In this document: positions 8 through 12,024 of the stretch, one piece after another
Layout of the letters: every line of letters begins with the position of its first letter
Position numbering within the stretch: position 1 is the first letter of the stretch
Assembly (NCBI RefSeq): GCF_002952775.1
Contig: NZ_CP025066.1
Location: forward strand, 1,798,001-1,862,000
Direction of reading: 5' to 3'
DNA from: Halalkaliarchaeum desulfuricum
GTDB taxonomy: Archaea; Halobacteriota; Halobacteria; Halobacteriales; Haloferacaceae
Length of the DNA: 64,000 nucleotides
Notes under the pieces: generated by a model
Told to the model about the DNA's origin: nothing
Database searches by the model: none
The model's input: only the letters and a program-made list of their open reading frames with translations
Made by a program: the position numbers and the translations under genes

Positions 8-1309
8 ATGGGTCTCAGGAGCTTTCTGGAGGGGACGGAGCCGACCGTGCTCACCGAGCCGGTCGATCCCCGGTTCGAACTCCCGGCGCTCGCGACACGC
101 GACGAGACGCGTCCGGTCGTCTTCGACGACGTGGTCGGACATCCTGACGTGCGCGCAGTCGCCAACCTGGTGTCCACCCGGTCGTTGATCGGGTCGGCGC
201 TGGGTGTCGAGCCGTCGGAGATCATCGACGAGGTGAGTTCGGCGATGGACGATCCGTCGCCAGTGTCCCGGACGGAACCCGCGGCGTTCGAGCACGTCGC
301 CGACGACCCGACGATCGCCGAGGAACTGCCGGTGCCGATCTACTACGACGAACACGAGCGGCAGTACTTCGCCTCGACGATCGTGATCGCGAAAGACCCC
401 GACACCGGCGTCCACAACCTCTCGTTTCACCGGATGATGGTCCAGGAGGACAACCGGCTGGTGATGCGGATGGTCGAGCGACACCTCCACGACATCTACA
501 CCCGATCGGGGGAGGAACTCGACATCGCGATCGTCGTCGGCGTCCATCCCGCCGTCGAGATCGCCGCCGCGACGTCGTTCTCGCCGGACATGAGCGAACT
601 CGAACTGGCCAACCGGCTCCACGGCGGGGAGCTCGCGACGACGGAGATACACGGCCTGCAGATCCCCAGCGAGGCGGAGGTCGTGATGTTCGCGACGATT
701 ACCGACGAGCTTGCCGACGAGGGGCCGTTCGTCGACCTCTCTCGCACCTGGGATAAGGTTCGGCAACAGCCGGTCGTCGAGGTGAACGAGCTGTGGACCC
801 GGCCGGACCCGCTGGCGCGGGTGATCGTCCCGGGCAAGCGCGAGCACGCCCACCTGATGGGGATCCCCCAGGAGCCCCGGATCTACCGGATCGTCGAAAA
901 CACCGTTCCCACGGTGCGGAACGTGGTGCTCACCCCCGGCGGCTGTTCGTGGCTCCACGGCGTCGTCCAGCTGGAGCCGCGGGCCGACGGGGACCCCAAG
1001 AACGCCGGGATGGCGGCGCTTTCGGCGCACCCGTCGATGAAGAAGGTGACGCTCGTGGATCCGGACGTCGATCCCGCCGATCCGGACGCCGTCGAGTGGG
1101 CCACAGCGACCCGAATGCAGCCGCACGAGGACATCGTCACCATCGAGGGGGCGAAAGGCTCCTCGCTGGATCCCTCACAGAACTACGAACGCGGCGTGAC
1201 GAGCAAGTGGATCGTCGACGCCACGATGCCCCGAGATCGGGATCGGGAGGCATTCCTGGAGGCGACCGTCCCAGGCGCCGAGGACGTTTCCCTCGAGGAG
1301 TATCAATAG
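8..1309 (+). CDS. UbiD-family decarboxylase, probable trans-anhydromevalonate 5-phosphate decarboxylase
   Basis: A 433-residue member of the UbiD family of prenylated-FMN decarboxylases, normal family length. Seen: the N-terminal MGLRSFLE start typical of archaeal UbiD proteins, a central NLSFHRMMVQ block around residue 140 that carries the conserved arginine, and the C-terminal KKVTLVDPDVDP...WATATRMQP and SLDPS blocks. In the segment that usually reads EIVxEG the sequence is EVVMFATI, so the second acidic residue is not conserved. It leads an operon with aconitase-X large and small subunits and UbiX. Known: in Aeropyrum this set converts phosphomevalonate to isopentenyl phosphate. Inferred: this protein catalyses the decarboxylation step. 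The frame is open to the window edge, so an upstream start is formally possible. Confidence 0.88.
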   Translation: MGLRSFLEGTEPTVLTEPVDPRFELPALATRDETRPVVFDDVVGHPDVRAVANLVSTRSLIGSALGVEPSEIIDEVSSAMDDPSPVSRTEPAAFEHVADDPTIAEELPVPIYYDEHERQYFASTIVIAKDPDTGVHNLSFHRMMVQEDNRLVMRMVERHLHDIYTRSGEELDIAIVVGVHPAVEIAAATSFSPDMSELELANRLHGGELATTEIHGLQIPSEAEVVMFATITDELADEGPFVDLSRTWDKVRQQPVVEVNELWTRPDPLARVIVPGKREHAHLMGIPQEPRIYRIVENTVPTVRNVVLTPGGCSWLHGVVQLEPRADGDPKNAGMAALSAHPSMKKVTLVDPDVDPADPDAVEWATATRMQPHEDIVTIEGAKGSSLDPSQNYERGVTSKWIVDATMPRDRDREAFLEATVPGAEDVSLEEYQ

Positions 1310-1366
1310 TCGACCGCGATCGCAGATCGAACGCACTTGGGACAAACCAACAGGAGGAGACACGAC

Positions 1367-2551
1367 ATGCATCTCACACGCGAGGAAGAGGAACTGCTCG
1401 AATCGGACACCCCCGGCGAGCGGAAGGCGATGGAGCTGCTGGTGACGCTGGGTGACGTCTACGGCGCCGAGGAGATGGTCGAGATCGGCTCCGCGCAGGC
1501 GTCGGGGATCTCTTATAAGTCGATCGGCGATCCGGGCGTCGAGTTCCTGGAGGGGTTCGCCGCGGAGGGTGCGAAAGTGTCGGTGTCGACGTTCGCCAAC
1601 CCCGCCGGCATGGACATGCAGCAGTGGCGCGAGATGGGCGTCAGCGAGGAGTTCGCCGAGAAACAGGAGCGCATCCAGGACGCACTCCGCGAGATGGGGG
1701 TCACGCTGTCGTTCACCTGCACGCCGTATCTGGCCGGGAACCTCCCCCGCCGCGGCGAACACGTCGCCTGGGCGGAGTCGTCTGCGGTGTCGTTCGTCAA
1801 CTCCGTTGTGGGCGCGCGGACGAACCGCGAGGGTGGGCCGTCGGCGCTCGCGGCCGCGATCACCGGTCGGACGCCGAAACACGGCCTCCACCTCGCGGAG
1901 AACCGCCGGCCCGACTACCTGATCGAGGTCGACGCCGAGATCGACTCCCAGTCTGACTTCGCCGCGCTCGGTTCGTGGGCCGGCCGGATCGTCGAGGACG
2001 CGGTGCCGTACTTCACAGGAATCGACGGCGGCCGGACGGACGAACTGAAGGCGCTGGGTGCGGCGATGGCCGCCTCCGGGGCCGTCGCGCTGTACTACGT
2101 CGAGGGAATCACGACCGACGAGGAACCGCCCGCCTCCGGTGATGTGGAGACGCTCTCGTTCGAGCCGTCGGACCTCGAGGCGGAGTACGAGGAGCTCACC
2201 ACCGGTGAGAACCCCGAACTGGTCGTCTTCGGCTGCCCGCACGCCTCGATGGAGGAGATCGAGGAGATCGCCGCCACCGTCGAGGGCCAGTCACTCACCA
2301 GCGACCTGTGGGTGTGCACGAGCGGTGCCGTCAAGACGTGGGCCGACCGCAACGGCCACACCGACACGATCGAGGCCGCCGGCGGGATGGTGCTCGCCGA
2401 CACCTGCAACGTCGTCTCCCCGATCGAGGAACTCGGCTACGAGACCAGCGCCACCGACTCGGCGAAGGCCGCGAACTACCTCCCCGGCTTCTGTAACCAG
2501 CAGGTCGTCTTCGAGGACAAACGCGCGCTGCTCGAGGAGGTAATCGAATGA
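1367..2551 (+). CDS. Aconitase X catalytic (large) subunit, probable phosphomevalonate dehydratase
   Basis: A 394-residue aconitase-X (DUF521) large subunit. It is expected to hold a 3Fe/4Fe-4S cluster and dehydrate (R)-5-phosphomevalonate to trans-anhydromevalonate 5-phosphate. Seen: cysteines in SFTCTPYL (about residue 118), VFGCPHAS (290), LWVCTSGAV (317), ADTCNVV (347) and GFCNQ (376), candidates for cluster ligands, and the SVVGARTNREGGPSAL block typical of the family. The ATG at 1367 is chosen over a TTG at 1337 because GGAGGA lies 8 nt upstream. Its stop overlaps the small-subunit start by four bases (ATGA), implying translational coupling. Other aconitase-X enzymes act on cis-3-hydroxyproline, but the UbiD/UbiX context argues for the mevalonate role. 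Confidence 0.88.
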   Translation: MHLTREEEELLESDTPGERKAMELLVTLGDVYGAEEMVEIGSAQASGISYKSIGDPGVEFLEGFAAEGAKVSVSTFANPAGMDMQQWREMGVSEEFAEKQERIQDALREMGVTLSFTCTPYLAGNLPRRGEHVAWAESSAVSFVNSVVGARTNREGGPSALAAAITGRTPKHGLHLAENRRPDYLIEVDAEIDSQSDFAALGSWAGRIVEDAVPYFTGIDGGRTDELKALGAAMAASGAVALYYVEGITTDEEPPASGDVETLSFEPSDLEAEYEELTTGENPELVVFGCPHASMEEIEEIAATVEGQSLTSDLWVCTSGAVKTWADRNGHTDTIEAAGGMVLADTCNVVSPIEELGYETSATDSAKAANYLPGFCNQQVVFEDKRALLEEVIE

Positions 2552-2991
2552 CTGGAGAGACGGATGATCGAGTGACGGAAGAGGCGATCGACGGGCGCGC
2601 GATCACCGACGGGCGCGGCGAAGGCGAGGTGCTCAGGTCCTCGGAACCGGTCAGCTTTTACGGCGCGGTCGACCTGAGCACGGGTGAGTTCATCGAGGAG
2701 GGCCACGAACTCGAGGGCCACAACGTGGCCGGCAAGGTGCTCGTTTTCCCGCGGGGGAAGGGATCGACCGTCGGATCGTACGTGCTGTACGGGCTCGCGA
2801 AGAACGGCGTCGCGCCGGCGGCGATCCTCAACGAGGAGACCGAGACGATCGTGGCAACGGGTGCGATCCTCGGGGAGATCCCCTGCATGGACTCGCTTTC
2901 GGCACCGCTGTCGTCGCTTCCCGAGGGCGAGCGCGTCGTCGTCGACGCCGACGCCGAACGCGTGCTCGTCGACGGTTGCGAGGTGGAGTGA
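2548..2991 (+). CDS. Aconitase X swivel (small) subunit, probable phosphomevalonate dehydratase
   Basis: A 147-residue DUF126/aconitase-X swivel-domain protein, partner of the preceding large subunit. Seen: VSFYGAVDLSTGEFIEEGHEL, then the GKVLVFPRGKGSTVGSYVL block that replaces the usual RGSSSGS loop, then VAPAAILNEETETIVATGAI and a conserved IPCMDSL near residue 113. About 30 N-terminal acidic residues precede the domain, as is common in haloarchaeal proteins. The start codon overlaps the stop of the large-subunit gene (ATGA). Known: archaeal phosphomevalonate dehydratases are heterodimers encoded by separate adjacent genes, exactly as here. Confidence 0.87.
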   Translation: MTGETDDRVTEEAIDGRAITDGRGEGEVLRSSEPVSFYGAVDLSTGEFIEEGHELEGHNVAGKVLVFPRGKGSTVGSYVLYGLAKNGVAPAAILNEETETIVATGAILGEIPCMDSLSAPLSSLPEGERVVVDADAERVLVDGCEVE

Positions 2992-2992
2992 C

Positions 2993-3586
2993 GTGTCCGA
3001 GCCTGGGTCCGACGGACGGTCGCGGGTGGTTCTCGGAGTGACCGGCGCGTCAGGGATCCCGATCGCGCTCCGGACCGCGGAGGCCCTCGCGGCCAGGGCG
3101 GAGCTCGTTACGGTCGTTTCCGACGCCGCCCGGGAGACCGCCCGTCACGAGGTCGCCGATCCCGACGCCGCCCTCGAGCGGGTCGCGGATCTGTCGACGG
3201 CGACGTACGACGAAGACGAGATCGCCGCCGCGGTGGCCTCGGGATCGGTGTCGTTCCGGGGGATGGCGATCGTGCCGGCGTCGATGAACACCGTGGCCGC
3301 GATCTCCGCCGGGCGGGCCGATTCGCTCATCACCCGGACTGCCGGCGTCTGTCTCAAGGAGGGGCGGACGCTCGTGGTCGTCCCCCGGGAGACACCCTTG
3401 AGCGAGATCCACCTGCGAAACCTGACGGATCTCGCGGGGATGGGTGTCGATGTCGTGCCGCCAGTGCTGGGCTTTTATTACGACCCGGACGGGATCGACG
3501 ACGTCGTCGACCACGTCACCGGACGGGTGCTCGATCGGTTCGGCTTCGATCACGACCTCTACGAATCGTGGGGCGAACTCGACTGA
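2993..3586 (+). CDS. ubiX: UbiX-type flavin prenyltransferase
   Basis: A 197-residue UbiX/Pad1 flavoprotein that prenylates FMN to make the cofactor needed by UbiD decarboxylases. Seen: VVLGVTGASGIPIALR near the N terminus (phosphate-binding GASG loop), SFRGMAIVPASMNTVAAI, LITRTAGVCLKEGRTLVVVP and the PRETPLSEIHLRN signature, then GFYYDPDGIDDVVDHVTGR. The GTG at 2993 follows the upstream stop by one base, so the gene is last in the four-gene operon. Its presence supports a prenyl-FMN-dependent role for the first gene. Length matches the family. Confidence 0.93.
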   Translation: MSEPGSDGRSRVVLGVTGASGIPIALRTAEALAARAELVTVVSDAARETARHEVADPDAALERVADLSTATYDEDEIAAAVASGSVSFRGMAIVPASMNTVAAISAGRADSLITRTAGVCLKEGRTLVVVPRETPLSEIHLRNLTDLAGMGVDVVPPVLGFYYDPDGIDDVVDHVTGRVLDRFGFDHDLYESWGELD

Positions 3587-3707: not shown

Positions 3708-4052
3708 TCATTCAGTCTGAATATATGTCTCTATCTCCTGTCGCACCTCATCAACAGTCGCGTCGGTCGCTTTAGCGGGTTGATGGGTGATCATCCAGTC
3801 TTTGAGAGTGAGAATCGACCATGGTGAGACGTAGGACGTTCGCGGGAGTTGTCCCTGCTCGAACTTGGTGTCGGTGAGTTCAATCGCCTCATTCCGAACT
3901 GTTGTTGTGATCACTGCCGCAATGTACTCCTGTCCGTAGGGGACGTGATCGTTTGATAAGAGCAGGTACGGACGTTTTGGGTTATTGCCGAACGGATCCG
4001 CTGCGAGAACGGTAGCACCTTGTGAATACGCCACGCTACGATCCCTCGCCAC
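3708..4052 (-). CDS. MazF/PemK-like toxin
   Basis: A 114-residue protein that looks like the MazF/PemK/Kid endoribonuclease fold. Seen: AADPFGNNPKRPYLLLSND near residues 17-35 (the strand-turn that in MazF carries the PxxGxE/RP motif), YIAAVITTTVRNEAIEL, and a SYVSPWSILTLKD strand, followed by an alpha-helical tail. It overlaps the 3' end of the upstream HTH gene by 17 bp on the same strand, a layout typical of toxin-antitoxin pairs. Known: MazF family members cleave RNA. Toxicity here is inferred, and the motif fit is weaker than in bacterial MazF. Local base composition is lower in GC than in the flanking operons. Confidence 0.7.
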   Translation of the reverse strand: MARDRSVAYSQGATVLAADPFGNNPKRPYLLLSNDHVPYGQEYIAAVITTTVRNEAIELTDTKFEQGQLPRTSYVSPWSILTLKDWMITHQPAKATDATVDEVRQEIETYIQTE

Positions 4053-4404
4053 TCAAATCGGGCAACTCCTCAGCCCACCCGTCGTTCTCTGCGTACCAAT
4101 CGTCACTGTAGGTATCGGCTACCGCCTCGACCCCGAGAAACGCGGCTGTCGCTGCTGCGATCCGGTCGTCTTCCGCGGCTGCCCAATACGGTTCCTTGTG
4201 ACGTACAAGGCCCACGGATTCGAGCCGCTTCAGTGTCGGTCCGATGCTCCCCCGTGGAATGCCAGTTTCTTTTGCCAATTCTGCTGGCGTGTATCCGACG
4301 GTTGGTGTCTTCAACAAAAACTCCAGCAATCGTCTCGCGTTTGTCCCTTCTGATAGGTCAACGCGTGGGTTTCCGGGTTCATGTGTTTCGAAATCGACGG
4401 GCAT
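4036..4404 (-). CDS. Winged-helix DNA-binding protein, probable antitoxin partner of the MazF-like gene
   Basis: A 122-residue protein with a MarR/TrmB-like winged helix in residues 18-70: NARRLLEFLLKTPTVGYTPA, then ELAKETGIPRGSIGPTLKRL as recognition region, then VGLVRHKEPYWA. The acidic C-terminal half (DDWYAENDGWAEELPDLSGE) could be the toxin-neutralising tail. The gene precedes and overlaps the MazF-like gene by 17 bp. AT-rich DNA with TATA-like stretches lies just upstream (about 4405-4440), compatible with its own promoter and autoregulation. The antitoxin role is inferred from gene order only; a plain regulator is the alternative. Confidence 0.68.
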   Translation of the reverse strand: MPVDFETHEPGNPRVDLSEGTNARRLLEFLLKTPTVGYTPAELAKETGIPRGSIGPTLKRLESVGLVRHKEPYWAAAEDDRIAAATAAFLGVEAVADTYSDDWYAENDGWAEELPDLSGEGS

Positions 4405-4658
4405 ATACGATTATTGTATTCGAACTGTATTAGATATTTGGGGTGGTGATTTGATTATCCTCTCTCCGAACAACCGTCTCTGAGAGCCTGGGTTGGCATC
4501 CCCCCGCGCTGGATTGCGAGGCTTTCGCCTCGAATTATCCGTAACAGAACGATGAATTTAGCGCGTCTCTCGGTCACAACACGCATCCTGTCCCCTTCAC
4601 TCGACACGAGTCGTGCCCTCGGGGTGTCTTCGTCGCCACTCAACCGAGTGGCTGTCGA
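4405..4658. other. Intergenic, AT-richer spacer with one short hairpin
   Basis: No convincing gene is seen here. A 6-bp stem with a 4-nt loop (CGAGGC TTTC GCCTCG, 4517-4532) is present. The ORF that can be drawn on the minus strand (4455-4643) shows no recognisable domain and an Arg-rich shadow-like composition. Confidence 0.5.
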
Positions 4659-5324
4659 TCAATCCGGCTGTTCACTGTCGTCCACCAGGGACGCGATGAC
4701 GAGTCGCTTGATTCCGCGTCGCAGGAGACCCCCAGCAGCGGGTTGAGAGATATCCAGATCGGCGGCGACCTCGCTGAGCGTTGCGTTCCGTGGTTCCTCG
4801 AAATACCCCGTTTCGAGCGCGACGAGGAGTGCTTCCCGTTGGCTATCGGTCAACCCTGCGTCCGTCGTCCCTAACCCCGAGTATTCGTTTACGCGCAGTA
4901 ACTCGATTTCAATGTCATTCTGTCGTGCATAGTTCCAGAGATGATCCAGATCCGTTCGATCGGGCATCCACACGGTGAGGATCCACGCGCTTGCGTCGTT
5001 CTCCATCTCGAGGATGACACCGTTTACGGCCGAAATCACTGGTGAGAGGACCTTCGCTTCGTCTGTATACTCGAAGCTGTAGATCGCCTTCCCGTCTCTC
5101 GTTTCAATGACACGTTCGAATGCAGCAATCGTACTGTCATTGCGCAATCCCGCCTCGAACTGGGTGAAATCTGCTGACTCGATGTGATAGAAAAATTTCC
5201 CCGACGTCGGGTCAGTTCCTGCCTCTGACACCGACCTGACCCTCGAACTGGGATCGTGAGCGACAGTCTGTGTGAGCACGATGTCAGGATGCTCGGCCCG
5301 GACGACCGCTTTGATGTCGCTCAT
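4659..5324 (-). CDS. HTH_10 (bacterioopsin-activator-type) transcriptional regulator
   Basis: A 221-residue haloarchaeal regulator. Residues 1-150 form the variable sensor-like part (MSDIKAVVRAEHPDIVLTQT onward). Residues 160-215 are the HTH_10 domain, with LTDSQREALLVALETGYFE, then ATLSEVAADLDISQPAAGG and LLRRGIKRLV. The ATG at 5324 is preferred over the longer ORF start at 5459 because family members begin close to this point and the extension runs over a hairpin-rich, non-coding-looking stretch. Ligand and targets are unknown. It stands alone between the TA-like pair and a zinc-ribbon regulator. Confidence 0.82.
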   Translation of the reverse strand: MSDIKAVVRAEHPDIVLTQTVAHDPSSRVRSVSEAGTDPTSGKFFYHIESADFTQFEAGLRNDSTIAAFERVIETRDGKAIYSFEYTDEAKVLSPVISAVNGVILEMENDASAWILTVWMPDRTDLDHLWNYARQNDIEIELLRVNEYSGLGTTDAGLTDSQREALLVALETGYFEEPRNATLSEVAADLDISQPAAGGLLRRGIKRLVIASLVDDSEQPD

Positions 5325-5416
5325 TGCCGTGGGGGTAGCAGCTTTCGCTATATGAATATTCGCAACCAATGGGATCCGAGATCTGGGACGGAGGTGAACG
5401 AAACAGCCGTCCCATA

Positions 5417-5447
5417 CTCTTCGCGCTTCAGCGTGGGGAGGACAGCA
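5417..5447. mobile_element. Possible right-end remnant of an IS1341/IS605-type element
   Basis: The segment contains an imperfect hairpin ending in CTTCAGCGTGGGGAGG. From memory this resembles the right-end hairpin that follows TnpB genes in haloarchaeal IS1341-type elements. No transposase gene is left beside it. The assignment rests on this short similarity only. Confidence 0.25.
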
Positions 5448-5535
5448 ATCTAAGAGCACGCGTGAGGATGAGAGATCGAGTGAGAATTGAAAAGATAGAG
5501 TGAGAATCCAGCCGGTACATGGACGGTGAATTTCG

Positions 5536-6510
5536 TCACTGTTCCGCTCCCGACGTCCGTTCCACGTTCACGACCTCGAGGGAATCGTCGATGGACAGGG
5601 AGATCGACTCCTCGTCACCGGTAAATGTGAAGGTAACAGCAAGCGGATCGACCGAGTGGATGTCTTCTTCGTAGGGGTACAAGACCTCGAGAAACGCTTC
5701 TCGCTGTGGATGGTGCGGGTTCAATCCATGATCGATGAGGAACGAGCGGAGTTCGAGATTCGTCATCAGCTTGTTCGCGTATATCGCCTCGAGTTCGTAG
5801 ACGCAGTTCGTACACCGTACTCGATACATGACGGCATATCGATTGTTGCAGGCGTCACAGAGACCCGAATCGGTGGTGTGGTTCCGGCAGACTGTCGCCG
5901 ATTCAACGAGACGGGCCGAACAGCGCGGGCAGATGCCGTTCGCTGCCGTCACTGTCTCAGCATTCGTCCACCGTGAGGCGGCCACGAACGCTTCCTTCGG
6001 AGAGCGTCCCACGATACCCGCTGGCGGCAGGTGCAGGTAGTAGAGTCGCTCTCGCTCTGCAGGGATGTTGACTTTCTCCTGGTCTCTCTCGCCGCCGTAA
6101 ATTCCCTCGCAGGACGTGCAATACACCCCAACCTGCTCCTCTCGGTAGTCCACCTCGATGGGTTCTGCTCCACAGCGGTGACAGCGCCAGTCGATGCTCG
6201 TCGGCTCGAGAGTCGGCGACTCCGTAACGGCACCGGAGAGCACCGCCTGAATGATCCGTTCGCCGGGACGACGTAACTGGTAGCCCTCGGCCGTCTGCTC
6301 GATGAAGTGCCCGGTGAGCTGATCGAGGTGATAATTGAACTTGCCGGAGTCCGTGACGTCGAGTTCCTTCCGCAGATCGCTGAACCGCACCGGTTCGTCG
6401 GCCGCGCCGAGTTCCTGCAGGATTGCGACCCGGATCTCGTTTCCCAGCCGTTTGAACGCCTCGTCGGGTGAGAGAACCTCGGCGTCGGCTTCCTCCGAGT
6501 CCCCGGTCAT
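5536..6510 (-). CDS. HTH regulator with C-terminal zinc-ribbon cysteine pairs
   Basis: A 324-residue protein. Residues 12-75 form an ArsR-like winged helix (DEAFKRLGNEIRVAILQEL, LRKELDVTDSGKFNYHLDQL). The rest carries repeated Cys pairs that look like zinc ribbons: WRCHRCGAEP (about 108), VYCTSCEGIY (128), ICPRCSARL (192), LCDACNNRY (217) and VRCTNCVYE (231). A C-terminal beta-rich segment includes LAVTFTFTGDEESISLSIDD. This HTH-plus-zinc-ribbon layout is found in haloarchaea, but I cannot name its ligand. It lies divergent to the PaaK-like gene at 6670 and could regulate it; that link is inferred from position. Confidence 0.82.
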   Translation of the reverse strand: MTGDSEEADAEVLSPDEAFKRLGNEIRVAILQELGAADEPVRFSDLRKELDVTDSGKFNYHLDQLTGHFIEQTAEGYQLRRPGERIIQAVLSGAVTESPTLEPTSIDWRCHRCGAEPIEVDYREEQVGVYCTSCEGIYGGERDQEKVNIPAERERLYYLHLPPAGIVGRSPKEAFVAASRWTNAETVTAANGICPRCSARLVESATVCRNHTTDSGLCDACNNRYAVMYRVRCTNCVYELEAIYANKLMTNLELRSFLIDHGLNPHHPQREAFLEVLYPYEEDIHSVDPLAVTFTFTGDEESISLSIDDSLEVVNVERTSGAEQ

Positions 6511-6669
6511 ACGCTAACGATTAGCACCTCCGCCTTTTAGTATCACTGCCCACCGTTGGACCCCTCCACCGGTGGGAATGCCTACTGCTGTGGTGCCATC
6601 GTCGGACAGGCAATCGGTTCACCCGCGCAGGAGGGATTTTAATGGCGGAAATCGAATAGGTAGCCACAT

Positions 6670-7821
6670 ATGGAACACGTTCAGCGTATCGCGGCCACGC
6701 AGCTCCCGAACACACTCGGGGATGTGCCAGTCATGACGAAGGAGGAATTCGCTCGAGTCGCCCGCGAGTCAGATGCGCCGCTTCGCTTCGCCACAAGCAA
6801 ATCGGGAGTCCCGGCGCCGTGGGCCGGAATCGACCACGTTGCCCGGATCTGCGCCGACGCCCTTCGGGTCGCCGGAGTCACCGACGAGGCGGTCCACCTC
6901 AACCTGGGAGCGCCGCCCCCGCATTCCTCGGGCTGGTCTGCGAACCTCGGATTCGCCGAACTGGGCGCAACGTCACTGAACCGGAGCTTCGACTATTGGG
7001 AGCGGCCGATCGAGGAGGGGGTCGCAGAGACGGCGACGGTGCTCTCGTCGATACCTGGGAAGGCGATCGACGTTGCAGCGGAGGTCGAGGAGGCGTACGG
7101 CGATCCCGGTGACGTCTTCCCGAACCTCTCTGTGGGACTCTTGTCGGGACAGTTGCTCCGTCCTGCCACCCGTCGAACGATCGGGGAGCAGTGGAACCTG
7201 GCGGAGACGCGGGAGTTATATGGATCCTCGGAGGCGTCATTGGTCGCCGCTGCGCCGGACGAATCTCGGAAGCTGGTACCGTTGTTGAACCGTCACATCC
7301 TCGAGATCGAAGTGGGGGGAGACATCGTCGACGTGCGTGACGTTGAGACACCGACGGAGGGGTCGCTCCTGATAACCGATCCGGCTCGCTCCGCTCTCAC
7401 CCTCCGGCGGTATCGGCAGGGCGATCGCGTCCGGGTGTATCCCGACGATCCGTTACCCCGGATCACCCCGCTCGGACGGGCTGATGATGCGATCGATCTG
7501 GATGGGGCACTCCTCCACGCAGCGGACCTCTTCGAGGCGATCGGCGAGGTGTTCCCAGACGCGTCGAATACCGTCGTCTACGTCCACGACGAGTCGCCCC
7601 CGACCGCGGTAGAAGTCTTCATCGAGGGCGTTGCTGACCCGCGGACGGATGATCTCTACGAGGCGCTCCTCGAACGACAACCGGCGCTCAGCCACGCGGT
7701 CGGTGAGCAGCCGGACGACAGGATCGCTGTCGCCACCGTTGCCGATATCGACGACCTGCCCTTCCTGGACGACGAGGGTCTGAAGAGTCGATTGATTGTC
7801 TTCGCCGCAGAACAATCCTGA
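6670..7821 (+). CDS. PaaK-like adenylate-forming (AMP-binding) protein with degenerate A3 loop
   Basis: A 383-residue protein related to phenylacetate-CoA ligase. Seen: an A5-like ELYGSSEASLVAA (about residue 178-190), an A7-like LRRYRQGDRVRV (about 247), and an ITPLGRADDAIDLDGALLH A8-like turn, followed by a small C-terminal domain with a VEVFIEG strand. The position of the phosphate loop reads FATSKSGVPAPWAG instead of the usual SSGTTGKP. The N terminus is also shorter than in PaaK (about 430 residues). These changes suggest altered or lost ligase activity. Acid substrate and partner are unknown. It is divergent from the zinc-ribbon regulator. Confidence 0.7.
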   Translation: MEHVQRIAATQLPNTLGDVPVMTKEEFARVARESDAPLRFATSKSGVPAPWAGIDHVARICADALRVAGVTDEAVHLNLGAPPPHSSGWSANLGFAELGATSLNRSFDYWERPIEEGVAETATVLSSIPGKAIDVAAEVEEAYGDPGDVFPNLSVGLLSGQLLRPATRRTIGEQWNLAETRELYGSSEASLVAAAPDESRKLVPLLNRHILEIEVGGDIVDVRDVETPTEGSLLITDPARSALTLRRYRQGDRVRVYPDDPLPRITPLGRADDAIDLDGALLHAADLFEAIGEVFPDASNTVVYVHDESPPTAVEVFIEGVADPRTDDLYEALLERQPALSHAVGEQPDDRIAVATVADIDDLPFLDDEGLKSRLIVFAAEQS

Positions 7822-7885
7822 AGCTCCTGCTGAACTGGTGATCGCAAGCCTACAGATTTCGTCCGGCGAACTGATCTCCAGGGGG

Positions 7886-8296
7886 TCAGTAGGTCAGGAG
7901 GGGCAGCTGTGTTATTCCGACGTCGTCGGCGATCCGCTCCACGTGGGTGAGTAATCTGTCTCGGGTCTCGATCCTGGGGGCCTCCGGATCGACGAAAATC
8001 GTGGCAAGCAGCGTCTCGTCGAGGAAAATGACTCCCCACCCGAGGATACTACAGCGCTCCTCGGCGACGATCACCCGCGTTCCATCCTGCTTCAGCCACT
8101 CCGAGAGGTCGGTCGCTTGAACGAAGGAATTCGTTTGCATTGCCTCACCCGGATTCTGCTCCGGGGGTTCGGTATCCGACGGTCGACCGGAGACGTCCCG
8201 AGTACGGATCTCTGGGTCCTGGTCTTGAACCGCTTTGGCATAGACTTCCAGGAGGGTATCTTCATCAGCCTGCGTTGCAGGGCGGGTGGTAATCAT
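7886..8296 (-). CDS. GNAT-like acyltransferase-related protein
   Basis: A 136-residue protein beginning MITTRPATQADEDTLLEVY, the usual first strand and helix of GNAT N-acetyltransferases. The later part reads TRVIVAEERCSILGWGVIFL, DETLLATIFVDPEAPR and a helix RDRLLTHVERIADDVG. The acetyl-CoA pyrophosphate loop (Q/RxxGxG/A) is not evident: the matching place reads APRIETRDRLL, so catalytic activity is uncertain. The ATG at 8296 overlaps the stop of the upstream HTH gene (ATGA), so the two are probably cotranslated. Function of the pair is unknown. Confidence 0.6.
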   Translation of the reverse strand: MITTRPATQADEDTLLEVYAKAVQDQDPEIRTRDVSGRPSDTEPPEQNPGEAMQTNSFVQATDLSEWLKQDGTRVIVAEERCSILGWGVIFLDETLLATIFVDPEAPRIETRDRLLTHVERIADDVGITQLPLLTY

Positions 8297-8727
8297 CCAT
8301 CCGAGTGGACCTCCGGCCACGCGTTCTCGCCCGGCCTAGCATTTGTCCGAGGGGCGTCCGGCTGTCCGTCCTGGGTTTCGGAATCCGACCGGAGGACATC
8401 GATGACGATGCCGGACTGTGCCGGAGCATAGAGGTCCATCTCCCGTCCCTTCGGGGAGTAATGGGTCCCCACGACCTGGATCAGGCCTGCCGTCCGGAGC
8501 TTGCGTATGTGGTAGAGGACGTTCTGGACTGACGTCTCGAGTTGCTCCGCCAGGTCGGCCGCGTTGGTGGGCTCCTCGCTGAGCTGGTTCAGGATCGTTC
8601 GACGCTTCTCGGAGGACAGCGTCTCGAAGAGTTCGCCCGCCTCTTCGAGCGTGATCACCGCAGGGGACCCCGCAGGGAGGGTGTCCGATTCCGGGGGGTC
8701 ATTGAACAGTTCGATCGTTTCCATCAC
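8293..8727 (-). CDS. ArsR-type winged-helix regulator
   Basis: A 144-residue regulator. Seen: LFETLSSEKRRTILNQLSEE (residues 33-52), TNAADLAEQLETSVQNVLYH as recognition helix region, and a wing TAGLIQVVGTHYSPKGREMD. The C-terminal 40 residues are polar and look disordered. The stop overlaps the start of the GNAT-like gene by four bases. An ATG three bases inside is an equally possible start. The target is unknown; the shared transcript suggests it controls the GNAT-like gene or the membrane genes upstream. Confidence 0.83.
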   Translation of the reverse strand: MMETIELFNDPPESDTLPAGSPAVITLEEAGELFETLSSEKRRTILNQLSEEPTNAADLAEQLETSVQNVLYHIRKLRTAGLIQVVGTHYSPKGREMDLYAPAQSGIVIDVLRSDSETQDGQPDAPRTNARPGENAWPEVHSDG

Positions 8728-8842
8728 TATCTAGCAAGTGGTCGTCCGTATTAATGGTAAGCAGAATTATATTTTTGTAGCATGCATTACTGAAATTCTT
8801 TTCACCTTCATCGCCCCCCGGCGAGCATCACGTGTGGGTACA

Positions 8843-9332
8843 TTACTCCGAAAACTTCCTCCGTGAGAGTAGTGGCGTGAGATTTGATTCTGGTGTCATT
8901 GAGAGCCCATATCGAAAAACGAGCAGTCCAGCAAGGACCCACCAGAGTCCCGCTCCAACGAACAATGGAACGAGTGCCGGGCCGGTGAATTTCCGCAGGC
9001 GGATCGTACGTGAGCGAACCCCCACCGAGAGCCTCGATCACTGGCTGGATATTCGTAATACCTAGCGGAATCAACAGTGCAAGGACGAAAAACACGGGTG
9101 CAACCCGCCAATTCAGTCGTCGGCGAACCCATCTCCCTAGCCGGATCTCGCTGGCCCAGATAACCACTACCGCCGCAATTGCTGGACCCCATACTCCAGG
9201 AAGAGCGGGTCTCGGATGTACCGCCCACAGATCGTATGCGAAATACATCGCGTACCAGCCCCATGTCCAACCGAACGTAACGAGGATAAATACCAGCAGA
9301 ACACGTTGCCGTATCCACATTTTCAGAAACAT
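8843..9332 (-). pseudogene. Decayed CPBP (CAAX-protease-like) membrane protein
   Basis: Minus-strand reading from 9332 gives MFLKMWIRQRVLLVFILVTF, two further hydrophobic segments and ALGGGSLTYDPPAEIH, which matches the N-terminal half of haloarchaeal CPBP intramembrane proteases. Near 8985 the frame breaks. The next frame continues with GPALVPLFVGAGLWWVLAGL and LVFRYG, which looks like the last membrane helix of the same family, and stops at 8843. The catalytic core (EExxxR and histidine motifs) is absent. The parts seen therefore fit an internal deletion with frameshift. The first frame can be read on to 8808, but the extension looks non-native. It lies 13 nt after a sensor-domain gene. Confidence 0.6.
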
Positions 9333-9345
9333 GCCCTGGCCACCG

Positions 9346-9981
9346 TTAGTCGAGGAGCGCTTTCGCCATCCACGCGGAGACCTGAGCGAGTGCGTTCAGG
9401 ACAAACAGCGAGAGGACCCCGACGATTATCCCAATGGGAACGGCGACGATTGCTTCGGGGAGTGTGTCGATCGTCCAGATCCCGGTCACAGCGACGTTGG
9501 GGTCGTTGTAATGGAGCGGGGCCGTGACCAGGGCCAGGGTAAGACCGACGCCGACCGATAACGCAACGAGCGCGGCGATCCCGACCCAGAACTTCAAATA
9601 CAGAAAGCCGAGCCCTTTCCAGGTCGAGGCGGCACGCATCCGGGCATCGAGTGACGCCGGGAGCCCCGCTCCCGACGCCGAGATATCGTCGGGGGAATCG
9701 ATGGTCACGTCCAACAGCACATTCGCCAGTTCTCGTTCGAAGGCTGCAACGACCCGAGAGCCGAGCAGCACTACGACCAGAAGGCCGATCCCGATGAGGA
9801 GGACCGCAAGTCCCAATCCGAGGGATAGCCCGACGGTCAATGCAACAAAATACACCAATCCGAGTGGGAACGAAAGCGCCAGGTAGAGGATGTTCCTGTA
9901 TGTTTGTGCTTCGAAGATCACACTCACGGCGTCCCGGATCCTGGAACTCTTCCGATGCGCCGAGGTTTCCATAGCTATCAT
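9346..9981 (-). CDS. Sensor-domain (PF13796-like) multi-pass membrane protein
   Basis: A 211-residue membrane protein. Seen: an N-terminal segment RDAVSVIFEAQTYRNILYLA, then long hydrophobic stretches around residues 30-75 (LGLVYFVALTVGLSLGLGLA; LIGIGLLVVVLLG), a polar section, and two more hydrophobic stretches (VGIAALVALSVGVGLTLALV; VPIGIIVGVLSLFVLNALAQ). This matches the putative sensor domain often found beside ArsR regulators and CPBP proteins in haloarchaea, consistent with the neighbours. Start choice is uncertain between ATG 9981, ATG 9972 and a longer ATG at 10005. No enzymatic motif is visible. Confidence 0.72.
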   Translation of the reverse strand: MIAMETSAHRKSSRIRDAVSVIFEAQTYRNILYLALSFPLGLVYFVALTVGLSLGLGLAVLLIGIGLLVVVLLGSRVVAAFERELANVLLDVTIDSPDDISASGAGLPASLDARMRAASTWKGLGFLYLKFWVGIAALVALSVGVGLTLALVTAPLHYNDPNVAVTGIWTIDTLPEAIVAVPIGIIVGVLSLFVLNALAQVSAWMAKALLD

Positions 9982-10130
9982 ACCCCATACCTCACAATAC
10001 GTCAAATTAACTCTCAGGTAGGTTCAAAATCGAGTTTGAGTCTCCCACAGGTCGACGGAACGTCCCCTCAGGATTTCGGATCGATAGTCGGAACCGATTC
10101 GGCGTTCTCAATCGAAAATTGCAGCTCCGC

Positions 10131-11495
10131 TCACTCGTCCATCTCGTCCCTGGCGTGAATCTTGGCCTGTTCGCGAGCGCTGGGATTTGCAGACTCCTTG
10201 AACGGAACCTTGGCCAGCGTCGCGTAGACGGGTTCACCGGGCTCTGCGGCGTACTCGTCCGGGAGGTGAACTGCAAACTCCACGTCGGCGTCGACGTCAT
10301 AGACCGCGTCGTCGAGGGGAACGTCGGTCTCGGCCTGCAGTTTCTCCGCCGGCACGTAGCCGAGGCCGATATTCGTCTCGAGTTCCGGACTCCACCACGC
10401 CGACGTCAGGTAGCCACATTCCTCGCCCGTCTCCGGGTCCGAGATCAGCCAGAAGTCTGGGGCCCACTCCCGGATCGGTTCGCCGGCGATTTTCAACCCG
10501 ACAAGTTTGTGAGCGAACGGGAACCCGCCGTTTTCGATCACTTCTTTCTGGCGTTCCAGTTCTGCTTTGCCGACGTAGTCTGCGGCCTTGTCGTCGGGAA
10601 CCTGATAGCCGAGGTTCACCTGGAACGGCGACGTCTCGTAATCCATGTCCTGCCCCAACGACAGGATTCCGGCAGCGACCCGTCGGTGGTGGGAGACGGC
10701 AGTCACGCCCCCGCCGTGGTCTTTGACGGTCTCGAGCACTGGATTCCACACTGATTCGGCGTTCTTCGTCGCCTCGCGCACGTAGATCTCGAATCCTTCC
10801 TCCCCGGAAAAGCCAGTCTGGCTCACCATCACCGGGACGTCGTTGATCGTTGCTTCCAGCAACCCGTAGTAGGGAACGCCGTCGGCAGCGTCACCGATGA
10901 TCGACTTCATCACGTCGAGCGATTTGGGTCCCTGAATCTGCATCGGCGAGACGTCGATTTCGTCGATGTCGACCTCGAAGTCGGTGCCGACTGCGACCCC
11001 TTGCAACCACTGCATCAGATCGGAGTCTGCAATGGAGAACCAGAACTCGTCCTCGTCGGGTCGCAACAGGACGAAGTCATTGAGGATCCCGCCGTCCTCG
11101 TTGCAGCAGATGGCGTACTTGCCACGCATCGTCTCGATTTCGGTCGCGTCGCGGGTGATGACGTAGTTGACAAACGCCTCGGCATCGGCCCCCTGGACAC
11201 GAATCTGGCGCTCGACTGCGACGTCGAACAGTGTTACGTCGTTGACCAGTTGCTCGTACTCGGCTTCCAATCCTCCATCTTCGGGCTCGATGTACCCGCG
11301 AGGGTGGTACATATCGTTGTACACCGTCGCCTGCCAACACCCCTCCTCGACGGAGAGATGCCAAAACGGCGACTTCCGGATCCGGGTCGAGATCAAGAGG
11401 TCAACGTCTGCGTCACCTGTTTGACGAAGGTTTCTGGGAACGGTGCGATCTGACTGGTCGACACTGGGGTGGTTCGGGTGGTGGGTATTAGACAT
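10131..11495 (-). CDS. GcvT-family protein related to DMSP demethylase DmdA
   Basis: A 454-residue folate-dependent methyltransferase of the GcvT/DmdA family. Seen: SPFWHLSVEEGCWQATVYND, LFDVAVERQIRVQGADAEAF, VNYVITRD, CCNEDGGILNDFVLL, then FSIADSDLMQWLQGVA. These resemble bacterial DmdA (VWDVSVERQ, VNEDGGMLND, SIADSDLMLWVKGLA) more than the glycine-cleavage T protein. It also has SQTGFSGEEGFEIYV. Known DmdA is about 365 residues; this protein is longer, mainly through a C-terminal extension. It may demethylate DMSP, betaine or another methylated osmolyte, producing methyl-THF; the substrate is not shown. The start MSNTHHPNHP at 11495 is chosen because the upstream extension lacks family similarity. 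No other gcv genes are adjacent. Confidence 0.75.
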   Translation of the reverse strand: MSNTHHPNHPSVDQSDRTVPRNLRQTGDADVDLLISTRIRKSPFWHLSVEEGCWQATVYNDMYHPRGYIEPEDGGLEAEYEQLVNDVTLFDVAVERQIRVQGADAEAFVNYVITRDATEIETMRGKYAICCNEDGGILNDFVLLRPDEDEFWFSIADSDLMQWLQGVAVGTDFEVDIDEIDVSPMQIQGPKSLDVMKSIIGDAADGVPYYGLLEATINDVPVMVSQTGFSGEEGFEIYVREATKNAESVWNPVLETVKDHGGGVTAVSHHRRVAAGILSLGQDMDYETSPFQVNLGYQVPDDKAADYVGKAELERQKEVIENGGFPFAHKLVGLKIAGEPIREWAPDFWLISDPETGEECGYLTSAWWSPELETNIGLGYVPAEKLQAETDVPLDDAVYDVDADVEFAVHLPDEYAAEPGEPVYATLAKVPFKESANPSAREQAKIHARDEMDE

Positions 11496-11592
11496 CGGAA
11501 ATCTATTTCGAAGGGTTTCGATCGTCCGCAAGGTATCTGTGTGCCATCCGACCGAATAGAAGGCCCGTGATCGCATCGTTCTGTAGCTTATA

Positions 11593-11611
11593 GGTATAAC
11601 CCACTTATACC
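11593..11611 (-). promoter_or_regulatory. Perfect inverted repeat GGTATAA-n5-TTATACC upstream of the DmdA-like gene
   Basis: Two 7-bp arms are perfectly complementary around a 5-nt centre and each contains a TATA-like sequence. It sits about 100 bp upstream of the DmdA-like start. It could be a regulator operator overlapping the core promoter. The dyad is seen; the function is inferred. Confidence 0.45.
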
Positions 11612-11785
11612 GGATCGAGAACGACACGGACGAACGAAAAGAGGTCTCTCTGGCATTGCACGGATGACGATACTCGCGAATCGGGGGTGAAATCATTGCG
11701 CTCGGCAGCGACCGTGGTAGTTTGGGTCACGTCTGTCGTCGGTACGTCCGTCGATTCTCGGAACTAGACGACCGAGATAACAAGT

Positions 11786-11795
11786 CTTATTTATT
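11786..11795 (+). promoter_or_regulatory. TATA box of tRNA-Asp
   Basis: CTTATTTATT lies about 30 bp before the tRNA 5' end in otherwise GC-rich DNA, matching haloarchaeal core promoter spacing. Confidence 0.5.
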
Positions 11796-11822
11796 CCCCC
11801 CGGATACGGAGTAATGCGGCAA

Positions 11823-11895
11823 GCCCGGGTGGTGTAGTGGCCCATCATACGACCCTGTCACGGTCGTGACGCGGGTTCAAATCCCGCCTCGGGCG
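11823..11895 (+). tRNA. tRNA-Asp (anticodon GTC)
   Basis: A 73-nt tRNA. The acceptor arms GCCCGGG (11823-11829) and CTCGGGC (11888-11894) pair over 7 bp with one G-T pair, followed by discriminator G. The anticodon stem CGACC/GGTCG encloses loop CTGTCAC with anticodon GTC. The T arm reads GCGGGTTCAAATCCCGC. The CCA is not encoded. The 3' part of the gene is duplicated downstream (see the direct repeat). Confidence 0.97.
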
Positions 11896-11938
11896 TACTT
11901 TTCGGCGGACACAGCGAACGAGGAGCGAAGCGACGAGT
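11872..11938 (+). repeat. Direct repeat copy 1 (tRNA-Asp 3' end plus flank), 67 bp
   Basis: The last 24 nt of tRNA-Asp and the following 43 bp are repeated identically at 12011-12077. The copy spacing is 139 bp. Confidence 0.95.
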
Positions 11939-11967
11939 GAGCCGTCCGCCGAAATACCCATCTCAAA

Positions 11968-12024
11968 GGGATTTGAACCACGCAAACCCGAGCTTGCGAG
12001 GGTTTGCAATCGGGTTCAAATCCC
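11968..12024. repeat. Nested inverted repeats derived from the tRNA T arm
   Basis: GGGATTTGAACC (11968-11979) is complementary to GGTTCAAATCCC (12013-12024). Inside it GCAAACCC (11982-11989) is complementary to GGGTTTGC (12000-12007). A further 11-bp inverted repeat joins 11900-11910 with 11944-11954. The spacer between the direct repeats is thus itself built from inverted tRNA-like pieces. Confidence 0.85.

Follow-up and report, generated by a model that had tools for sequence, protein, structure and literature searches.

The archaeal modified mevalonate pathway has been described in Aeropyrum pernix and Thermococcus kodakarensis (PMC10040528, PMC8184944). It relies on a two-subunit aconitase X (AcnX) with three type-IIb cysteines as phosphomevalonate dehydratase (PMDh) and on a UbiD protein with its UbiX partner as anhydromevalonate-phosphate decarboxylase (AMPD), and isopentenyl phosphate kinase (IPK) follows downstream in the pathway. 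Its chemistry saves ATP relative to phosphomevalonate decarboxylase (PMD) (PMC10040528, PMC9385802, PMC11052028). Halobacteria are listed as PMD-route users and as an exception to this archaeal pathway (PMC10040528, PMC9385802; 2022-2024), or are assigned the haloarchaea-type pathway (PMC11052028), which in Haloferax volcanii consists of PMD plus IPK according to VanNice et al. 2014, as cited in PMC8305020. Here we describe a four-gene block at the start of a 64,000-nucleotide stretch of the Halalkaliarchaeum desulfuricum AArc-Sl chromosome (NZ_CP025066.1, positions 1,798,001 to 1,862,000; hereafter the window). The block resembles the A. pernix and T. kodakarensis system in its two-subunit AcnX, its cysteines and substrate contacts, and its UbiD and UbiX; unlike what those accounts state for Halobacteria, H. 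desulfuricum has both this single block and a complete PMD route. We consider it quite probable that the block adds to the haloarchaeal PMD route a second lower mevalonate branch, used mainly under anoxia and gained by transfer. The genes present and their linkage, the conserved residues, the trees and the joint occurrence with PMD are observed directly; enzyme activities, anoxic use and the direction of transfer are inferred from them.

Gene content and layout

The four genes are as follows (window coordinates):

8-1309, + strand: UbiD-family decarboxylase, predicted AMPD (433 aa; TIGR00148, 326 bits)
1367-2551, + strand: AcnX large subunit, predicted PMDh large subunit (394 aa; PF04412, 493 bits)
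2548-2991, + strand: AcnX small (swivel) subunit, predicted PMDh small subunit (147 aa; PF01989)
2993-3586, + strand: UbiX flavin prenyltransferase, predicted supplier of prenylated FMN to UbiD (197 aa; GTG start)

A preliminary description of the window had named the same four genes, and all four open reading frames indeed lie on the + strand with full-length family matches. UbiD is matched over the Pfam UbiD N, middle and C domains, UbiX exceeds the cut-offs of both TIGR00421 and NF004685, and the small AcnX subunit scores slightly below the cut-off of NF003046 (156 against 163 bits). The large subunit starts at ATG 1367, where the conserved MHLT... begins, and not at the mechanically called TTG 1337. 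The large (domains 1-3) and small (swivel) parts of AcnX are separate subunits, as AcnX type IIb requires. The 4-bp overlap of the two AcnX genes and the 1-bp gap before UbiX agree with the spacing given previously, which left out the 57-bp gap between the UbiD stop codon (1309) and the start of the large AcnX subunit. This UbiD is the only one in the genome. The block proteins are strongly acidic (D+E 16-20%, K+R 6-8%), as is expected because of the salt-in cytoplasm.

The order UbiD-AcnX large-AcnX small-UbiX is found in all 18 haloarchaea with this AcnX (the H. desulfuricum locus and 17 others), and dN/dS values of 0.07-0.15 between the block and its counterpart in a second Halalkaliarchaeum genome indicate purifying selection. 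On these sequence comparisons the block is not a chance arrangement. By eye, a TATA-like motif can be recognized about 27 bases 5' of the UbiD start codon in most haloarchaeal loci; at the H. desulfuricum block it reads TATTATAAGG and lies upstream of the window. Its position suggests a promoter yielding a leaderless transcript.

Enzyme assignment

The large AcnX subunit aligns with T. kodakarensis AcnX (7CNR) at 345 bits and with cis-3-hydroxyproline dehydratase at 199 bits, and the small subunit aligns with 7CNR chain B at 123 bits. We used T. kodakarensis AcnX (TkAcnX; structure 7CNS, with its cluster and mevalonate-5-phosphate binding; PMC8184944) as the reference for residues. The cluster cysteines Cys110, Cys283 and Cys342 of TkAcnX correspond to Cys118, Cys290 and Cys347 here and are present without exception in all 19 haloarchaeal sequences. 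Mevalonate-5-phosphate is contacted in TkAcnX by Gly48, Val49, Ser50, Asn53, Asn79, Glu129, Ser130, Ser131, Lys361 and Tyr365 and by a Ser-Thr-Val of the small subunit; kept in the block are Gly47, Ser49, Asn78, Glu137, Ser138/139, Lys367, Tyr371 and the small-subunit Ser-Thr-Val, the last within a conserved GKGSTV base/carboxylate motif. The catalytic Glu, Lys and Ser residues of TkAcnX are conserved as well. Two contacts are changed: Val49, a main-chain contact, is replaced by Ile, and Asn53 by Ser. We considered the latter as evidence against PMDh and dropped it, since Ser is the usual state at this position (57 of 64 other archaeal PMDh).

The catalytic residues of UbiD are Arg142, Glu238 and Asp243, the last two forming a Glu-x4-acid motif in EGPFVD. 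The Asp of EGPFxD is invariant in the 68 AcnX-linked archaeal UbiDs examined, whereas other UbiDs carry EGPFxE, with Glu in the HmfF-like 6H6V and in AnInD (7P9Q). We therefore propose EGPFxD as a candidate AMPD signature, defined in this work and not taken from the literature.

Hydroxyproline dehydratase belongs to the same superfamily and shares the fold of the block AcnX, but its ring-binding Asp203 and Ile206 are replaced by Ser46 and Ser49 in the large subunit, and the AcnX reaches 261 bits against the hydroxyproline dehydratase model NF051439, whose cut-off is 700. The type-I control sequence 7D2R is an engineered mutant (S449C/C510V), and the Cys at its site-1 position was therefore given no weight. 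In trees the large subunit falls among archaeal PMDh, apart from the hydroxyproline dehydratases, and both it and UbiD are nested among archaeal mevalonate operons. The preliminary description had proposed such trees as a check on its claim of an archaeal PMDh/AMPD branch in a haloarchaeon; both proteins fall with the mevalonate-type clades. Residues, trees and gene neighbourhoods together make the identities of PMDh and AMPD highly probable.

Two predicted lower mevalonate routes in one genome

H. desulfuricum AArc-Sl, with one chromosome of 3,313,120 bases, also encodes the PMD route. PMD is located at 799,322-800,317 of the chromosome (NF040704, 588 bits; cut-off 475), mevalonate kinase (MVK) scores 252 bits (TIGR00549, cut-off 163) and IPK 160 bits (NCBIfam cut-off 120). 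MVK lies directly 5' of IPK, two genes past enolase, and an HMG-CoA reductase is encoded too; MVK, IPK and PMD all lie elsewhere on the chromosome, apart from the block. The preliminary description had left open whether the organism uses the archaeal branch instead of the haloarchaeal one, has both, or has a block that acts on another hydroxy acid, and had suggested searching the genome for PMD and IPK; with both found, the second option is the right one. Control searches of H. volcanii found neither AcnX nor UbiD.

The two branches share their start, mevalonate-5-phosphate, their product, isopentenyl phosphate, and the kinases MVK and IPK. The PMD of H. volcanii takes one ATP-using step with no Fe-S cluster or prenylated FMN, whereas the block branch would need neither ATP nor PMD. 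In the proposed scheme, the two AcnX subunits with a [4Fe-4S] cluster would dehydrate mevalonate-5-phosphate to trans-anhydromevalonate-5-phosphate; UbiX would make prenylated FMN, with which UbiD would convert this intermediate to isopentenyl phosphate; and the IPK of the genome would phosphorylate the product to isopentenyl diphosphate. PMD in the same cell would convert mevalonate-5-phosphate to isopentenyl phosphate in a single ATP-consuming step that involves no Fe-S cluster. The anhydromevalonate branch would most likely serve anaerobic, energy-poor growth by sulfur respiration or fermentation, saving one ATP per C5 unit, and PMD would serve oxic growth or run in parallel. By analogy with the enzymes of relatives, the anhydromevalonate route is expected to be oxygen-sensitive. 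Preferential use under anoxia is held with less confidence than the enzyme identities. A more specific version, in which anaerobic haloarchaea possess an oxygen-switched fork with PMD used in air and a DPANN-derived, oxygen-sensitive, ATP-saving route used without it, is put forward tentatively, as plausible and a little short of probable.

Distribution and possible link to anaerobic life

Among 391 species-level Halobacteria genomes, PMD is present in all and this AcnX in 18 (474-499 bits), which belong to six genera in three families. The positive genera include Halorhabdus (H. salina, H. amylolytica), Halapricum (H. hydrolyticum), Halodesulfurarchaeum (among them H. formicicum HSR6, 2,085,946 bp) and Halalkaliarchaeum. 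A further positive genus, g53, appears from its replicon structure to be Halanaeroarchaeum sulfurireducens-like. One additional genome (G272), from a haloarchaeon of another family (f4), encodes a two-subunit AcnX that is divergent (locus L055, 7762-9494; 34% identity). The mevalonate-phosphate residues are missing from it, and an FAD-dependent oxidoreductase gene lies next to it; judging from these features, this AcnX probably has another substrate.

The identified AcnX-positive genera are anaerobic or facultatively anaerobic, and sulfur-respiring or fermentative. Halorhabdus and Halapricum are facultative anaerobes. Halodesulfurarchaeum formicicum is a strict anaerobe, oxidase-negative and showing no growth at 0.1-5% O2 (PMC5437934). 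AArc-Sl itself was isolated from Searles Lake with formate and sulfur (PMC6176080); it is facultatively anaerobic and uses H2 or formate for sulfur respiration. On average, AcnX-positive genomes have 1.5 heme-copper oxidase matches per genome versus 3.6 in 52 AcnX-negative genomes, and of the four genomes that have no such match at all, three are AcnX-positive. A true anaerobic ribonucleotide reductase was seen in six genomes, all AcnX-positive and all Halorhabdus (six of seven). As a general marker it was rejected, since it failed outside Halorhabdus, with no match in the strict anaerobes of Halodesulfurarchaeum and g53; it counts as partial support.

The following points weigh against a mainly anoxic branch gained by transfer. 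The oxidase difference (p = 0.0017 when the positives enter as genus means) allows for kinship only in part. Every AcnX-positive genome, even those of strict anaerobes, also has PMD; therefore the second branch has not taken its place and could be a minor one. AArc-Sl is able to grow aerobically and has three oxidase matches, so that anaerobic use of the block can be called likely at best. Finally, the DPANN donors discussed below are metagenome bins, for which misbinning is possible.

Part of this evidence would also fit a branch that is real but idle or plainly redundant, independent of oxygen or energy status: PMD is universal and stands intact beside the block, and AArc-Sl is a facultative aerobe. 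We regard this as unlikely, though the strongest of the alternatives, in view of the purifying selection, the order kept intact in six genera, and the occurrence of the block in lineages that have hardly any heme-copper oxidases or none; an idle block is also not expected to last in strict anaerobes with 2-Mb genomes. That PMD was never lost even in strict anaerobes, so that two routes coexist, is the main puzzle.

Gene neighbourhood in relatives

The nearest relatives of the block outside Halobacteria are found in five bins (L060-L064), which carry the labels Aenigmatarchaeota, Diapherotrites or DPANN and, to judge from the isolate names, seem to come from sediment of soda or salt lakes. Their mevalonate operons share both the four genes and their order, with UbiD and the large AcnX subunit 58-67% identical in most. 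The difference is that the DPANN block is joined to MVK and/or IPK, whereas the H. desulfuricum block stands alone: mevalonate-pathway kinases follow and/or precede the block in most of the five bins, and in L060 and L061 the order is MVK, UbiD, AcnX large, AcnX small, UbiX, IPK. It is also evident that linkage exists within Halobacteria, as in four genomes of Halodesulfurarchaeum and its sister genus g53 a co-directional PMD gene lies 66-82 bp 3' of UbiX, and a polyprenyl synthetase is encoded near the block. In Halorhabdus, the genes 3' of the block (AEC-type transporter, ferritin-like protein, transketolase) gave no link to mevalonate.

These neighbourhoods bear on the alternative that the block was recruited from the AcnX and UbiD families as a dehydratase and decarboxylase for a different hydroxy acid, in amino-acid or organic-acid catabolism. 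Such a function might be expected from the D-2-hydroxyacid dehydrogenase gene that lies divergently just upstream of the block, from the mostly uncharacterised AcnX family (types IIc-f; PMC8184944), from the divergent haloarchaeal AcnX of L055 and from the complete PMD route that H. desulfuricum already has. In the second Halalkaliarchaeum genome, UbiD directly follows a DNA polymerase II gene and no 2-hydroxyacid dehydrogenase is present there; the dehydrogenase was rejected as a pathway partner, not being conserved within the genus. Together with the mevalonate-phosphate landmark residues, the far lower score of hydroxyproline dehydratases, and the position of the block between MVK and IPK in its nearest relatives and next to PMD in two genera, this makes another hydroxy acid, which the preliminary description had kept as an option, a very improbable substrate.

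Similar associations were noticed elsewhere. In an unrelated archaeal bin (L086, RBG_16_50_20), a PMD-like gene adjoins UbiD-AcnX (280 bits, below the PMD cut-off), and in L135, a bin labelled Deltaproteobacteria, a diphosphomevalonate decarboxylase adjoins UbiD-AcnX large-AcnX small-UbiX. The two lower mevalonate routes may thus have been co-encoded repeatedly, or the bacterial bin L135 may be mislabelled. A bin labelled Planctomycetota (L103) carries archaeal-type AcnX large, AcnX small and UbiX genes (56% identity), by horizontal transfer or misbinning.

Origin of the block

AcnX is present in 97 of 101 other Halobacteriota sampled, and therefore the ancestor very likely had it. The haloarchaeal large subunit nevertheless shares 64-67% identity with saline DPANN sequences and at most about 51% with other Halobacteriota. 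The haloarchaeal large AcnX subunits and UbiDs each form one clade (SH-aLRT 99 and 100, respectively) next to the saline DPANN sequences, and other Aenigmatarchaeota and Diapherotrites branch further out in both trees. Forcing haloarchaea and other Halobacteriota together is 102 log-likelihood units worse (p-AU 3.5e-39, approximately unbiased test). A vertical remnant, kept from a methanogen-like ancestor and lost in most haloarchaea, would suit the wide occurrence of AcnX in Halobacteriota and is scarcely credible given the identities, the rejection of the joint grouping and the agreement of the UbiD tree.

From the trees and the test, the branch was probably lost from Halobacteria and then regained, probably once, by transfer from a DPANN-like donor, most likely hypersaline DPANN archaea. 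The direction of transfer is deduced from these phylogenies and holds as far as the DPANN outgroups are reliable and their bins are correct. The Halalkaliarchaeum block groups with Haloarculaceae although the genus belongs to another family, and the sequences suggest that the block was probably passed on between haloarchaeal genera after its gain.

Some features of the surroundings are worth noting. Directly downstream of the block (3708-4404, - strand) are genes for a PemK/MazF-like protein (weak Pfam match) and a MarR-like helix-turn-helix (HTH) partner. In a Halapricum genome, the block is likewise bordered by a homologous pair (L050:5336-6024; 40% and 51% identity), and the block proteins of that genome rank among those most similar to the H. 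desulfuricum ones; the pair beside both blocks may be a trace of joint mobility. Positions 4001-12000 of the window have a G+C content of 58-59%, compared with about 65% elsewhere, and several HTH regulators; by composition this region immediately 3' of the block gives the impression of an insertion or a mobile segment. About 1.2 kb 5' of the block (L006:4001-10795) lies a 2264-codon frame for the DNA polymerase II large subunit with apparent inteins.

Significance

The enzymes are of known kinds; what is new is a forked, dual lower mevalonate pathway in Halobacteria. We found no earlier report in the open-access literature of the archaeal mevalonate route in these genera or in Halobacteria, and a remark elsewhere is possible. 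That 18 of 391 species-level genomes encode a complete second route runs contrary to the listing of the class as an exception. In these haloarchaea, one step would naturally have two solutions side by side: a cheaper one that depends on an oxygen-labile Fe-S enzyme, and a cluster-free one that costs more ATP. Whether oxygen and ATP economy are tied to the choice of mevalonate pathway, as is assumed, can therefore be tested directly within a single species. Core lipid-precursor genes have apparently moved from DPANN to larger archaea, the reverse of the usual host-to-DPANN expectation. If the oxygen switch is true, a formerly aerobic class would have cut the ATP cost of its membrane lipids on its return to anaerobic life.

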